DNA of 64,000 bases, from positions 142,398 through 206,397 of the forward strand of contig BPIH01000001.1 of assembly GCA_026004015.1 (NCBI GenBank), in the 5' to 3' direction. Shown here one piece after another: positions 44,128 to 48,912 of this stretch. The translations under genes were made by a program, and so were the position numbers. The notes under the pieces were generated by a model, which ran no database searches, was not told where the DNA came from, and saw nothing but the letters and a program-made list of their open reading frames with translations. How positions within the stretch are numbered: the stretch's first letter is position 1; every line of letters begins with the position of its first letter. Source of the stretch: Chloroflexota bacterium. Lineage in GTDB: Bacteria > Chloroflexota > Limnocylindria > Limnocylindrales > CSP1-4.

Positions 44128-44676
44128 GCGGCCGACGGGCCCCGCTCGTCACAGGTACCGTCGCCTCGGGGGATCCTCGCTGCCGTCACCCTCGCCGGGT
44201 GCGGGATCGCCGCCCGCCAGGTGACGCTGCCGCCCGCCTCGCCGACCCCGGCGCCGTCCGTCTCGGCCGCCGTCGGCCTGACCCGCCTCCAGGTCGCCGG
44301 GGCCCTCCGCGCCATCGGCGTCCCGATCGTCGATGCGCAGGTTCCGTACCGGCCGGGCGAGTCGCCGCTCCTGGCGGCGGCGCCGCGGCTCGTCGTCCAG
44401 GCCGTCGTCCCCGACGCGCCGACGTCCGGCTTCATCGTCATCTACGAGTTCCCCGACGGGCAGACGGCGACCGCTGCCGCCGAGGAGATGGTCCGCTACG
44501 TCGGGAGCGGCTTCGGCCAGGTCCAGTTCCCGACCGACGCCCGCTTCGTCCTCCGCCAGCTCGGCTCGACCCTCGTCTTCTACGTCTGGTCGCCGGGCGC
44601 GGCGCCGAGCCCGACCCTCGGCGAGATCGCGACGGCCCTCGGCTCGATCGGCCAGGGGTACGAGGTCCGCCGCTAG
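44124..44676 (+). CDS. Putative lipoprotein (one frameshift)
   Basis: ATG 44124 overlaps the HIT stop. After MSGRRAPLVTGTVAS one extra G at about 44169 (a run of five) shifts the frame; corrected, it continues GILAAVTLAGCGIAARQ, a lipoprotein signal with the LAGC lipobox. The mature part has a Pro/Ser linker, then a compact alpha/beta domain (TRLQVAGALRAIGVPIVDAQ, GFIVIYEFPDGQTATAAAEE, YVGSGFGQVQFPTDARFVLR) ending YEVRR. About 184 residues. Lipid-anchored outside the cell; function unknown. Confidence 0.7.
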
Positions 44677-44702
44677 CGGCGGGTGCGGAGCCCGAGGCCG
44701 CG

Positions 44703-46395
44703 TTACGCCCTCCGCGTCGGCTCGCCTCCATCGACGATCGGGAGCGGCGCCTCGACGACCGCCCAGGCCCGGACGAGGTCCCGCTTCACCTTGAGGGTGT
44801 GGGTCCGCGGAAAGTCGGCCTCCGGCCAGAGCCGCCAGCCCGCGATCCGCTGGTGGACGGCGAGGCGGGCGTTCGCCGCCCGGACCGCGGCGTCGATCCG
44901 GGCCCGGAGCTCGGCCGGGTCCGTGGCGAGCGCCTCGACGCCCCGGCCGGGGCTCTCGCCGCCCTCGGGAAGGCCGTGGCTGCCCGGGGGCGAGGATGAC
45001 CGCCTCGATCCGGCCCGGCCGCGTCTCGAGGACGACGGAATCGCGGATCCCGGCGTCGCGGAGGGCGTTCTCGACGTCCTCGGGGTAGACGTTCAGGCCG
45101 TTCGGGAGGACGATCATGTCCTTCTTCCGGCCGGCCAGGACGAGGCGCCCGTCGGCGTCGAGGCGGCCGAGGTCGCCGGTGTGGTACCAGCCGTCGGCGT
45201 CGAAGGCGGCGGCCGTCGCCTCGGGGTCGTTCCAGTAGCCGAGAAAGAGGGTCGGGCCCCGGAAGCAGACCTCGCCGTCGTCGGCGAGCCGCATCTCGAC
45301 CGGCGGCATCGGCCGGCCGACGGTCCCGGGGCCGTGATCGCGGAGCGTGTTGCACGTCCCGTAGCCGACCTCCGTCGAGCCGTAGCCCTGGATGACGATG
45401 ACCCCGATGTCCTCCCAGGCCTGCTGGAGGGCCGGTGGCAGGTAGGCGCCGGAGGAGACGAAGAGCCGAAGCGAGCCGCCGAGGCGCTCGTGGAGGCGTC
45501 GGAAGAGGAGGCGGCGGGCGGCGAAGGGGAGGCGTCGGGCGATCCGACGGAGGCGCTCGAAGGCGGCCCGCCGGCCGCTCGCCTCGACCTCCCGCTCGAT
45601 GGCGCTCCAGAAGAGGTCGAGGATCTGGGGGACGACGATCATCGACGTCACCCGATGGCTCCGGAGGGCCTCGAAGACGACCCGCGGGTTCCGGCTCCGG
45701 ACGTAGAGGATGTCGGCCCCGACCTCGAGGGCGTAGAAGCAGCCGATCGCCTGCTCGAAGAGGTGGGAGAGGGGGAGGAGGGAGACGACCCGGTGCTCCA
45801 TCCGGGGCAGCGTCCGGTGGACGGCCTCGAGGGTCGCGAGGACGTTCCGGTGGGCGAGCATGACCCCCTTCGGGGCGGCCGTCGTCCCGGAGGTGAAGAT
45901 GAGGTCGAAGACCTCGTCGGGCCCCGGGCGCTCCCAGGCCGCGAGTCGGGTCTCCCAGTCGGGCGGGAAGGACGGGTCGGGGTCGGCGGCGAGGGCCTCG
46001 AGGGTCGTCTGGGGGAAGCCGGCGAGCCCCGCCTCCCGCGGGTCGGGGGCGTCGCGGCCGGTGCCGATGGCGAGGTGGCGGGCGCCGGAGCGCTCGACGA
46101 TCCGCTCGACGGTCTCGGGCGCCATCCGGAGGTCGAGGGGGACGAGGATGAGGCGGGCCCGGATCGCCCCGAAGTAGACGGCCGGCAGCTCGGGGGTCGA
46201 GGGCGACCAGGTGAGGAGCCGGTCCCCGGGCTGGAGGCCGAGGGCCCGCAGGCGCCAGGCGGCGAGGCGCGAGCGGCGGTCGAGCTCCCGGTACGTCCAC
46301 GTCGTCCGGGAGCCGTCGTCGCGGAGGACGCCGAGGGCGGGCCGGTCAGCGTATCGGGCGACGCTCGTCTCGAGGAGGTCGAGGAGGGTTGCCAC
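44703..46395 (-). CDS. AMP-binding (long-chain acyl-CoA synthetase-like) enzyme (one frameshift)
   Basis: ANL superfamily adenylate-forming ligase, probably fatty-acid activating. FDLIFTSGTTAAPKGVMLAHRN is the P-loop motif A3; VVSLLPLSHLFEQAIGCFYA, VIVIQGYGSTEVGYGTCNT (A5), GWYHTGDLGRLDADGRLVLAGRKKDMIVLPNG (A7/A8 hinge) follow. Near 44995 one base is missing; after that the C-terminal domain reads IDAAVRAANARLAVHQRIAG, ending with FPRTHTLKVKRDLVR, which supplies the catalytic Lys (A10). Start is GTG 46395 (ATLLDLLETSVARYADRPAL); TACGAT lies nine bases upstream, giving a leaderless message. The opposite strand at 46.5 kb begins the accessory stretch. CoA versus other acceptor cannot be decided. 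Confidence 0.87.
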
Positions 46396-46404
46396 GGCAG
46401 GGCG

Positions 46405-46410
46405 ATCGTA
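46405..46410 (-). promoter_or_regulatory. -10 box for the acyl-CoA synthetase-like gene
   Basis: Minus strand TACGAT, nine bases before GTG 46395, no ribosome-binding site. No clear -35. Confidence 0.4.
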
Positions 46411-46508
46411 CCCCGGGCCTCGGTCGGCGCCCAGGGTCGGGGCGGCCGGGGACTGCCCAAGGGGCGTTGCAAAACGTGGCCGGCTGCGTGAGTGTAGGTG
46501 GACTTCCT

Positions 46509-46600
46509 TACTTGACACGAGAGAGGAGAGAGAGAGGTGGCGCCGCGGCCGAATGGGATGGCCGCGGCTGAAGCATGGGGGACCATGAGATGCCTCAGCG
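46509..46600 (+). repeat. Promoter/leader repeat, copy A
   Basis: TTACTTGACAC, a GA-rich tract, the hairpin CCGCGGCC-GAATGGGAT-GGCCGCGG, then GGCTGAAGCATGGGGG and AGATGCCTCAGC. The same series of elements recurs at 48063-48155 (copy B). TTGACA at 46512-46517 may be a -35, but no good -10 follows at 17 bases. It stands directly before the secreted-protein gene at 46590. Confidence 0.65.
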
Positions 46601-47541
46601 ACGTTCCCGCACCCCTGTTCTCGTTCTCGCCCTGCTCGTGACGCTGTCCGCGTGGGTACCGCTGGCGGAGGACTTCACCGCGGACGCCACGGTTGGGGCC
46701 GAGCGTCGGCTCTCTGAAGCGTCGATTCCGGGCTCGATGGTCGTCGCCTTGTCGCCCGAGTGCCGGGTACCCACGAGTCAGCCGGAGCGCGCCGCAGCCG
46801 ATGTTGCTGCAGCGCAGTTCGTGTTCACACGGGTGGCGCTCAACGCTGCAGACTTGCGCGTCTGCCCGGTCGACGACGGATTTCTCGTTGTCGAGAAAGG
46901 GGCGAAACTGGCGTCCGTGTCGTCCGAGAGGGCCGAGGTGCCGTCCGGGCTCGCAGGCCGGTATGTTGCCTCCCTCTTCGCTGGTCATAGCATCGCGCCG
47001 ATGGGTGACACGGAGTTGCTGGCGAGCCTTGGTCAGACGGCGGCAGCCCCGTATTGGCGAGAACGGGAGTCCAACTGCTTTGCCTGGGATTCGGAACGGT
47101 TCCGCCTACCTGGCTCCCTGCTACTACATCCATCAGCTCATGAATGATGGCGACGGTGCCCGCGACTACTTCACCCTGAAATTCCGTGCCACCTCCGGCG
47201 GCGGGCGGCGCTGGGATGCGTGGCTCGAGTCGGTTCGGACTGCAGGCTCGGCCACGCAGTACTGGTACGACTGGGCGCCCGGGGGTGATGTCACGAGCAA
47301 CTGCCAGAACGTCTCGCTCGGGTTTCCGGTGCTCGGCGTGGTGGCGACAATGAGCGCCACTCGCTGTGAGCGGTGGGACATGACCCTGTGGGAGGAACCG
47401 GGCCACTTCCGCAACAAGTGGAACTGCGACTGCTGGTTCGGAATCGATGCGGACCGCGAGGTCGCATTCCAAGTCGCCGTGAAGATGAATCAGGGCACGA
47501 CGCCGCGATGGACGCTGTCGGCAGGCTTCACCGGGTTGTAG
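46590..47541 (+). CDS. Secreted protein with a Trp/Cys-rich domain (one frameshift), probably acquired
   Basis: ATG 46590 starts MPQRRSRTPVLVLALLVTLS and continues AWVPLAEDFTADA, a signal peptide with likely cleavage there. The mature region up to residue 165 has scattered cysteines (SPECRVPTS, DLRVCPVDDGFLVVEKGAKL). Near 47097 a one-base change is needed; the rest reads SAYLAPCYYIHQLMNDGDGA, RRWDAWLESVRT, and ends RWDMTLWEEPGHFRNKWNCDCWFGIDADREV. Cys and Trp are unusually common. Base composition is visibly less GC-biased than its neighbours, with many A/T third positions, which suggests transfer. I cannot name the family. Confidence 0.6.
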
Positions 47542-48110
47542 CGGGCCCGAGGCTCATCGCGCTGGCGTGTCTTGTCGTCCTCGCCGGCTGCGCCGAGCCG
47601 CCGGCACCGCCGCCCTCGGAGGCCGAGGCGCTCGCCCTCCTCGATCGGATCGTGGCGACGGCGATGCGCCGGGACTTCGATGCCCTCTGCGCCTTTGGGA
47701 CCTCGGCCTGCTACGACTTCCTCGATCAGGCGGGTCGGGACGCCGTGCCGCCCCAGCCGCCCCGGGTCGTCGGTATCACCCGACTCGAGAACAGCCGCCG
47801 CCCCGACGGCCTCTGGACGAGCGGCGGCGTCCTCCTCCAGCTCTGTGGCGTCGACGGGCGGGGCCGCCCGTATGCGTCGGAGATGCTCATCGTTCGCAAG
47901 GGTTCCGTGTCGAACCCCGGTCCGCTCGCCGCCTCCGAGCCCGTCTACTGGTCCGGGATGCGGATCGCCCGAGACGCCACCGTGGGTGGGGGATCCGAAC
48001 CGATCGACTGCTCAAGAGGCGCTGATCGGTTTCACATTGTCCGATCGGATCGCGCTCGCTCCGTACTTGACACATTGAGAGAGAGAGAGAGAATGTTGAT
48101 TGCCGGCTGA
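47508..48110 (+). CDS. Putative lipoprotein
   Basis: ATG 47508 overlaps the previous gene by 34 bases. Signal sequence VVAGPRLIALACLVVLAGC with the LAGC lipobox, Pro-rich spacer, then ALALLDRIVATAMRRDFDAL and CAFGTSACYDFLDQ with two close cysteines, and GGVLLQLCGVDGRGRPYASE. In the frame used it runs to TGA 48110 through the GA tract of leader copy B, which is unlikely to be coding. A one-base shift near 47990 would end it at TGA 48023-48025. The C-terminus is therefore uncertain. Exported; function unknown. Confidence 0.6.
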   Translation: MDAVGRLHRVVAGPRLIALACLVVLAGCAEPPAPPPSEAEALALLDRIVATAMRRDFDALCAFGTSACYDFLDQAGRDAVPPQPPRVVGITRLENSRRPDGLWTSGGVLLQLCGVDGRGRPYASEMLIVRKGSVSNPGPLAASEPVYWSGMRIARDATVGGGSEPIDCSRGADRFHIVRSDRARSVLDTLRERERMLIAG

Positions 48111-48261
48111 TGGGTGGCCGGGCTGAAGCATGGGGGTTCGCAGATGCGTCAGCACTTCTCCCTCCCCACCAGCTTCGCACGTTCGGGGGGCCGTGTTGGC
48201 ATGCCATCTACAACCCGGTGCAGTCGGCATGATCGGTGGCAACTACCAAGGAGATCTGACG
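48063..48261 (+). repeat. Promoter/leader repeat, copy B, and long leader
   Basis: GTACTTGACAC (TTGACA 48067-48072), a (GA)n tract, a weaker hairpin (GCCGGC...GGCCGG) with the same TGATGGGT loop, GGCTGAAGCATGGGGG and AGATGCGTCAGC. After this shared part a further 100 bases lead to AAGGAG and ATG 48262. A short frame beginning at the ATGCGTCAG is open but looks non-coding. Confidence 0.6.
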
Positions 48262-48912
48262 ATGAACGGGGAGGTCACGAACCCGACCGTCCAACGCCCA
48301 CGGCGGCCGAGCCGGGCGGTGCGGGCCGTCGTCGTGGGCGTCGCGGCGATCGCCCTCGTCGGCCTGCCGATCGGCATGGCCGCCGCACCCCCACCGAAGG
48401 ATGATCTCGTCGGCGTCTTCGGCGCGACGAACACCGAGTTCCCGGACCCCGCCTTCCTCGTCAACGGCGAGCCCGTCTCGGGTCAGGCGCTGGCCCGGAG
48501 CGTGGCCGTCTTCGAATACCAGGCCCGCCAGCTCGGCAATCCCCTCGACCATCGGACGGCCATCAAGCAGGCGGTGGAGCGCCTCGCGGTCCAGGTTCGC
48601 CTCCGCCAGATGGCGGAGGAGCGCGGCTACGCCGTCTCCGACGCCGAGCTCGACGCGTACCTCTCCGGGCTCGTCGCTCAGGCGAGGCAGTCGGCTCCCG
48701 ATCCCGGGAACCTGGCGCTCCTCGCCGCCGGGGGCTATCCGAGTTGGGAGGCATACGTCGCCGATCCGGCCGTCCGGGCCGAGTACCGGAACGCCCTCCT
48801 CGTCAACAAGCTGATCAGCGAGCTGCTCGCCGCCGACCCCGGGCTCACCGCCGAGGATCTCCAGGCAAAGGCGCTCGCCGATGCGAAGATCGAGCTCCGC
48901 TTCTCGCCGTAG
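48262..48912 (+). CDS. Exported SurA-N-like protein without a PPIase domain
   Basis: ATG 48262 with AAGGAG eight bases upstream. The N-terminus (NPTVQRPRRPSRAVRAVVVG, then VAAIALVGLPIGMAAA) is a signal peptide or anchor. The body reads FPDPAFLVNGEPVSGQALAR, then HRTAIKQAVERLAVQVRLRQ, MAEERGYAVSDAELDAYLSG and TAEDLQAKALADAKIELRFS, the pattern of the SurA/trigger-like helical domain of parvulin-type foldases. No rotamase domain follows, so it is shorter (216 residues) than PrsA or SurA. It may be a chaperone for exported proteins such as its neighbours. Followed by a lipoprotein gene 25 bases later. Confidence 0.7.
   Translation: MNGEVTNPTVQRPRRPSRAVRAVVVGVAAIALVGLPIGMAAAPPPKDDLVGVFGATNTEFPDPAFLVNGEPVSGQALARSVAVFEYQARQLGNPLDHRTAIKQAVERLAVQVRLRQMAEERGYAVSDAELDAYLSGLVAQARQSAPDPGNLALLAAGGYPSWEAYVADPAVRAEYRNALLVNKLISELLAADPGLTAEDLQAKALADAKIELRFSP

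Follow-up and report, generated by a model that had tools for sequence, protein, structure and literature searches.

Predicted promoters with a GA-repeat spacer precede unrelated exported-type genes in a Chloroflexota genome and may be switched by repeat slippage

The closest described systems are promoters that carry simple sequence repeats. According to the cited sections of the respective reports, the hifA/hifB promoters of Haemophilus influenzae contain a (TA)9-11 dinucleotide repeat whose length has been proposed to alter the spacing between the -10 and -35 boxes (PMC2651432), the promoter of porA in Neisseria meningitidis has a poly-G tract, changes in which alter expression levels (PMC3639595), and GAA repeats occur in the promoters of the vlhA set of surface-protein genes in Mycoplasma gallisepticum (PMC6258824). 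For sigma70 promoters, a spacer of 17 nt is described in the cited part of the source as optimal, with other lengths lowering expression several-fold and with generally no specific requirement for the sequence of the spacer (PMC9303308). The literature on repeat-driven phase variation that we searched deals mostly with pathogens and host-associated bacteria. Here we describe candidate promoters with a GA repeat in an uncultured Chloroflexota bacterium.

The window, a stretch of 64,000 nucleotides from this genome, contains two copies of a GA-rich promoter/leader block (Table 1), which the initial annotation had noticed ahead of two exported-protein genes and had ascribed to a regulatory RNA or a shared regulator site. 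The likeness of the two copies is real and above chance, as local alignment of their neighborhoods gives a score of 77 versus a maximum of 35 in shuffles (n=100). The alignment has 61 identical columns out of 102. Placed on copy 2 without gaps, copy 1 matches at 47 of 78 positions, and its next best places in the 64-kb window match at 38 (plus strand) and 39 (minus strand). The aligned part spans only ~105 nt, with no likeness beyond, which excludes a plain segmental duplication within the window. The likeness into the genes ends at 46615 and 48167, and the proteins encoded downstream are unrelated to each other. All the elements first named for the block are found in both copies and in the same order (TACTTGACAC, GA tract, G+C hairpin, GCTGAAGCATGGGGG, and AGATGC(C/G)TCAGC), and the loops of the two hairpins contain AATGGGA and GATGGGT, matching the loop motif that had been reported. 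TACTTGACAC starts at 46509 in copy 1, as annotated, and at 48064 in copy 2, rather than at 48063. These are its two exact occurrences in the window, against an expectation of 0.16 even when up to one mismatch is tolerated. The distance from TACTTGACAC to GCTGAAGC is exactly 48 nt in both copies, and TACTTGACAC and GCTGAAGCATGGGGG (the latter at 46567 and 48122) are likewise given as 48 nt apart.

Table 1. Features of the two window copies and their genes, and the six further GA-spacer promoters (eight promoters in all).
Feature	Position	Strand	Description
Copy 1, conserved promoter/leader block	46505-46615	+	Local alignment with 48060-48167
Copy 1, -35 box TTGACA	46512-46517	+	From sequence
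Copy 1, imperfect GA tract (putative spacer)	46519-46536	+	No recognizable -10 box behind; GAGGTG at spacing 16
Copy 1, G+C hairpin	46542-46568	+	10 pairs, predicted fold
Gene 1	46590-47541	+	Exported-type N-terminus MPQRRSRTPVLVLALLVTLSAWVPLA; Cys/Trp-rich conserved C-terminal half in a different frame
Copy 2, conserved promoter/leader block	48060-48167	+	Local alignment with 46505-46615
Copy 2, -35 box TTGACA	48067-48072	+	Promoter scan
Copy 2, (GA)8 tract	48077-48092	+	Occupies the putative spacer and extends into the -10 box
Copy 2, probable -10 box GAGAAT	48089-48094	+	Spacing 16; scan finds 1 site versus 0.1 expected in shuffles
Copy 2, hairpin	48103-48121	+	CCGGCT/GGCCGG; fold no better than shuffles
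Gene 2, exported SurA-N-like protein	48262-48912	+	PF13623; AAGGAG 5' of ATG
GA-spacer promoter	C1:29994		TTGACA, 17 nt, GATAAT
GA-spacer promoter	C1:48641		Best hexamer right after tract at spacing 14, poor
GA-spacer promoter	C1:53483		TTGACG, 16 nt, GAGAAT
GA-spacer promoter	C3:31569	-	Weak TAGGAA at 17; 3/6 box only
GA-spacer promoter	C6:31321		Best hexamer right after tract at 9; poor GACGAT at 18
GA-spacer promoter	C7:59726	-	TTGACA, 18 nt GA repeat, TATTGT

Both downstream genes are of the kinds first described, while the reading frame of gene 1 and the start of gene 2 had to be corrected. In gene 1, the signal-peptide frame, open from 46590, disagrees with the frame of the conserved C-terminal half (47089-47541), which may reflect a frame error, decay, or overlapping ORFs. 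Its homologues cover only this half in tblastn (47089-47529). Of 399 other genomes in the phylum, four contain such a homologue (32-39% in G131, G239, and G243), and the surroundings in these four have no such leader. The match of gene 2 to PF13623 (E 1.8e-6, 28.3 bits) is just below the Pfam cut-off of 28.5. To judge from the AAGGAG ahead of it, the most likely start of gene 2 is at 48262, ~95-120 nt past the conserved block. SurA-N-like homologues were found in 2 of 106 other genomes of the family, with neither TTGACA nor a GA tract of at least 4 units in ~3.5 kb around each, and thus the element does not travel with the SurA-N-like gene. The SurA-N-like protein gave no match when used as query in a genome scan.

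Several observations concern gene neighborhoods. In two genomes of the family, G011 (L136:7875-9156) and G046 (L137:2756-4118), a SurA-N-like exported protein is encoded directly 3' of a small secreted aromatic-rich protein, and these small proteins are related, with 27% identity between them (E 3e-11). In the window (46590-48912), the SurA-N-like gene is preceded by a lipoprotein-like ORF and by a gene for a secreted Cys/Trp-rich protein. Such neighbors are perhaps a secreted protein and its own chaperone. The locus L180:1047-1490 (minus strand) encodes a small secreted aromatic-rich protein, with a GA-rich spacer promoter ahead and a lipoprotein-like ORF after it, and resembles the window arrangement; this protein has a very weak match to the secreted protein of G046 (E 0.08). 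The acyl-CoA-synthetase-like ORF at 44149-46518 (minus strand) of the window turns out-of-frame in its last third, probably due to an assembly frame error.

When a covariance model was built from the two copies, it matched one further site of this genome less strongly (E 0.002, at C1:53476). At this third site (C1:53483), TTGAC is followed by a GA tract, a short leader, and a gene with a signal-type N-terminus. Because the match repeats this layout, the TTGAC-GA part was singled out. The genome is 55% complete, and the counts below come from 1.37 Mb, about half of the genome. Matches to GAGAGAGAGA form seven distinct tracts, and all seven are directly behind TTGACA or TTGACG, at a distance of at most 14 nt; from the frequency of TTGAC in the window, the chance of one lying this near is about 0.005 for each tract. 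TTGACN{0,14}GAGAGA occurs at nine distinct places, its reversed control at none, and TTGACN{0,14}TCTCTC likewise at no place in the same genome. The ninth place (C6:26584) is antisense inside a sensor-kinase coding sequence. CTTGACN{2,14}GAGAGAGA has six matches in the 1.37 Mb of this genome versus five in 106 family genomes together, most of which look fortuitous by eye, being located in coding or other sequence. The resulting eight promoters comprise seven with a GAGAGAGAGA tract and one with a less perfect tract. By these patterns, the two window copies are members of a predicted promoter class having a GA repeat between the -35 and -10 boxes.

All eight sites have a -35 box of the form TTGAC(A/G). 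A -10 box with at least four of six consensus letters at a spacing of 16-18 nt follows at four of these (C1:29994, C1:53483, copy 2, and C7:59726). Since the boxes flank the tract at this distance, the GA tract appears to occupy the spacer of a sigma70-type promoter. The other four sites have a weak -10 box, one at an unsuitable spacing, or none at all, and the spacings at C1:48641 and C6:31321 would be off-length if the hexamers there are true boxes. Long pure GA tracts (16-18 nt) are present at three sites, and several tracts of this genome are interrupted. These lengths may carry assembly errors, and the assembly shows apparent frame errors (gene 1 and ORF 44149-46518).

The eight downstream proteins all have a hydrophobic N-terminal stretch, with a 12-residue mean of 2.06 to 3.25. 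By this crude hydrophobicity rule, applied to starts picked by eye, control of surface or secreted proteins is indicated at all eight sites. A looser rule (first 80 residues, cut-off 2.0) is passed by 8 of 32 window genes versus 8 of 8 (Fisher p 1.7e-4). For TTGACA-16/18-TANNNT sites of the same genome that do not have a GA spacer, 3 of 15 products are exported-type by eye, again versus 8 of 8 (Fisher p 3.4e-4). The eight proteins have no match to each other in BLASTP at an E value of 0.1, and the six encoded outside the window have no Pfam match at this value. The shared regulator site of the initial annotation is retained, understood more broadly as a promoter class in common (eight sites, all before exported-type genes), and the regulatory RNA is not.

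A structured RNA in the shared leader, either a riboswitch or a hairpin that masks the start codon, is very improbable. The first hairpin is present in both copies, with four consensus pairs changed on both sides in a comparison of just these two sequences, and the predicted fold of the 50-nt copy 1 leader is much better than those of shuffles (z -3.8). However, copy 2 folds no better than shuffles, and the same holds more generally, with six of the eight class leaders in this genome not folding clearly better. A second hairpin, GCTGAaGCAT/ATGC(C/G)TCAGC, would set the AUG of gene 1 inside its stem, but its paired columns are invariant and provide no covariation, and gene 2 probably does not start at the AUG in the corresponding place of copy 2. 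No credible Rfam match was obtained at gathering or permissive thresholds for either copy or for the other six sites. The covariance search of 177 genomes of the class returned only the two copies and one more site, all in this genome, and no homologue in the 176 others. A general leader hairpin was rejected, as a clear fold is seen only in copy 1, C7, and one of two Propionibacteriaceae leaders. GGGTGGCCGG, common to copy 2 and an Acidobacteria leader (L229), was set aside as probably a chance match in G+C-rich hairpins.

The same layout occurs in other bacteria. Searching for TTGACA-GA6-TANNNT across 84,980 species of bacteria and archaea gave 35 places, as compared with ~4 by chance (estimated from the number of fixed letters). 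The scan was run for GA alone, and its spacer-length distribution is no evidence because the pattern itself favors 17 nt. Many of the places are in Saccharibacteria, where most of the genes that follow do not encode exported proteins. Outside Patescibacteria, in Acidobacteria, Propionibacteriaceae, Planctomycetota, and Clostridia, 8 of 9 places with a called ORF precede, by eye, an exported-type protein. The 17 readable Saccharibacteria spacers are 17 nt (12), 19 nt (4), or 15 nt (1) in length, and several start with TTGACAAATCGAGAGAGAGAGAG; they form a series in 2-nt steps, but one that comes mostly from the 17-favoring pattern and from sites that are not independent. Among viral contigs, GA is not special, to judge from the numbers of spacer matches (2 GA, 3 CT, 0 CA, and 3 GT). 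The 14-mer GCTGAAGCATGGGG was rejected as a marker of the element: its two matches in 200 relatives are both in unrelated sequence, and those in viral contigs, among the matches listed, all resemble chance. Two different MAGs (L220 and L223) are identical in a GA promoter and in the 60 nt upstream of it, with different genes behind, as if the promoter cassette moves or is shared.

These distributions bear on a passive history, in which one GA-run promoter was copied together with its start region before several genes and the microsatellite is only a spacer. Such a history would explain why copies 1 and 2 and C1:53483 are alike beyond the promoter, and it agrees with the general lack of a requirement for a specific spacer sequence in the cited part of the sigma70 work (PMC9303308). 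It is nevertheless unlikely, given that exported-type genes follow at every one of the eight sites, that the combination of GA spacer and exported-type gene recurs in other phyla, and that pure tracts of 16-18 nt, as at three sites, would be expected to decay without selection.

We lean instead towards sigma70-type GA-spacer promoters that precede unrelated exported-protein genes and are switched independently by slippage, as a contingency (phase-variable) set, a reading we hold to be somewhat the better bet. In this mechanism, TTGAC(A/G) and the -10 box would be separated by the GA dinucleotide repeat as spacer, and promoters of this kind lie ahead of unrelated exported-protein genes. The promoter-leader cassette was probably copied, with a likeness that reaches into the leader for at least three sites (both window copies and C1:53483). 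Replication slippage, by removing or adding GA units, would shift the -35/-10 distance in 2-nt steps, because the repeat sits between the two boxes, and each gene could thereby be set to high, low, or off independently, yielding a contingency set of secreted proteins. The class, its bias towards exported-type genes here, and its single orientation are features of the sequences, as are whole-unit length differences between paralogous promoters in two other genomes. We infer from these that the boxes are used by RNA polymerase, with tract length setting promoter strength and slippage switching the genes.

The length differences were seen in three of seven promoter pairs compared in other genomes. 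These three pairs, paralogous promoters from two genomes, have GA tracts of 10 versus 18 nt (flanks 53/60 and 53/60), 14 versus 20 nt (flanks 54/60 and 55/60), and 13 versus 15 nt (flanks 37/60 upstream and 59/60 downstream), so that the lengths differ by 8, 6, and 2 nt while the flanks are conserved. The other four pairs have equal tracts, which speaks against the slippage switch. Also against it are the absence of a -10 box in copy 1, the poor boxes at C1:48641 and C6:31321, the 3/6 box at C3, the mostly non-exported proteins behind the Saccharibacteria sites, and the antisense position of C6:26584 in a kinase gene. Interruptions, as in several of the tracts here, damp slippage. Constraint is favored over free slippage by the equal 48-nt spacing in copies 1 and 2, and slippage alone does not predict that the orientation is all GA and no TC.

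The last two points speak for the GA spacer as a recognition feature, with a dedicated DNA-binding protein or sigma factor, or a DNA-shape effect on RNA polymerase, reading GA on the coding strand and turning on a secretome regulon together. The nine GA places against no TC place behind TTGAC would then follow, and the downstream genes, unrelated yet of one kind, would suit a regulon, as would the prevalence of 17-nt spacers and of TTGACAAATCGAGAGAGAGAGAG starts in Saccharibacteria. We consider this possible but doubtful: whole-unit differences of up to 8 nt with conserved flanks in the three paralogue pairs would break a fixed site, and the single orientation could stem from duplication of one cassette.

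More tentatively, and with less confidence than in the slippage switch within this genome, GA-repeat spacers may be a widespread and so far undescribed device with more than one origin, serving slippage-switched secreted sets in environmental and candidate-phylum bacteria, with a 'phasome' of at least eight proteins here. We found no description of GA-spacer promoters in the literature searched, which was for the most part openly accessible. If the class is true, it would provide a sequence-only route to the regulons of secreted proteins and would bring unculturable bacteria into the range of repeat-driven switching.

As far as the cited sections of the reports describe the known systems, the likeness to hifA/hifB would lie in a dinucleotide repeat in the promoter region, with surface-protein genes and a proposed spacing effect in Haemophilus. 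The present promoters differ in having GA for TA and in numbering at least eight within one uncultured genome, where the exported-type genes behind them are unrelated. With porA they share a promoter repeat tract ahead of an exported-protein gene, but that tract is mononucleotide and concerns one gene, whereas here the repeat is dinucleotide and concerns a set of genes. The vlhA promoters are alike in that a purine-rich simple repeat is common to several surface-protein genes; unlike vlhA, which is one gene family, the GA-spacer genes are unrelated. The GAA repeat of vlhA is located upstream of the -35 region, whereas the GA repeat here would lie inside the -35/-10 spacer.
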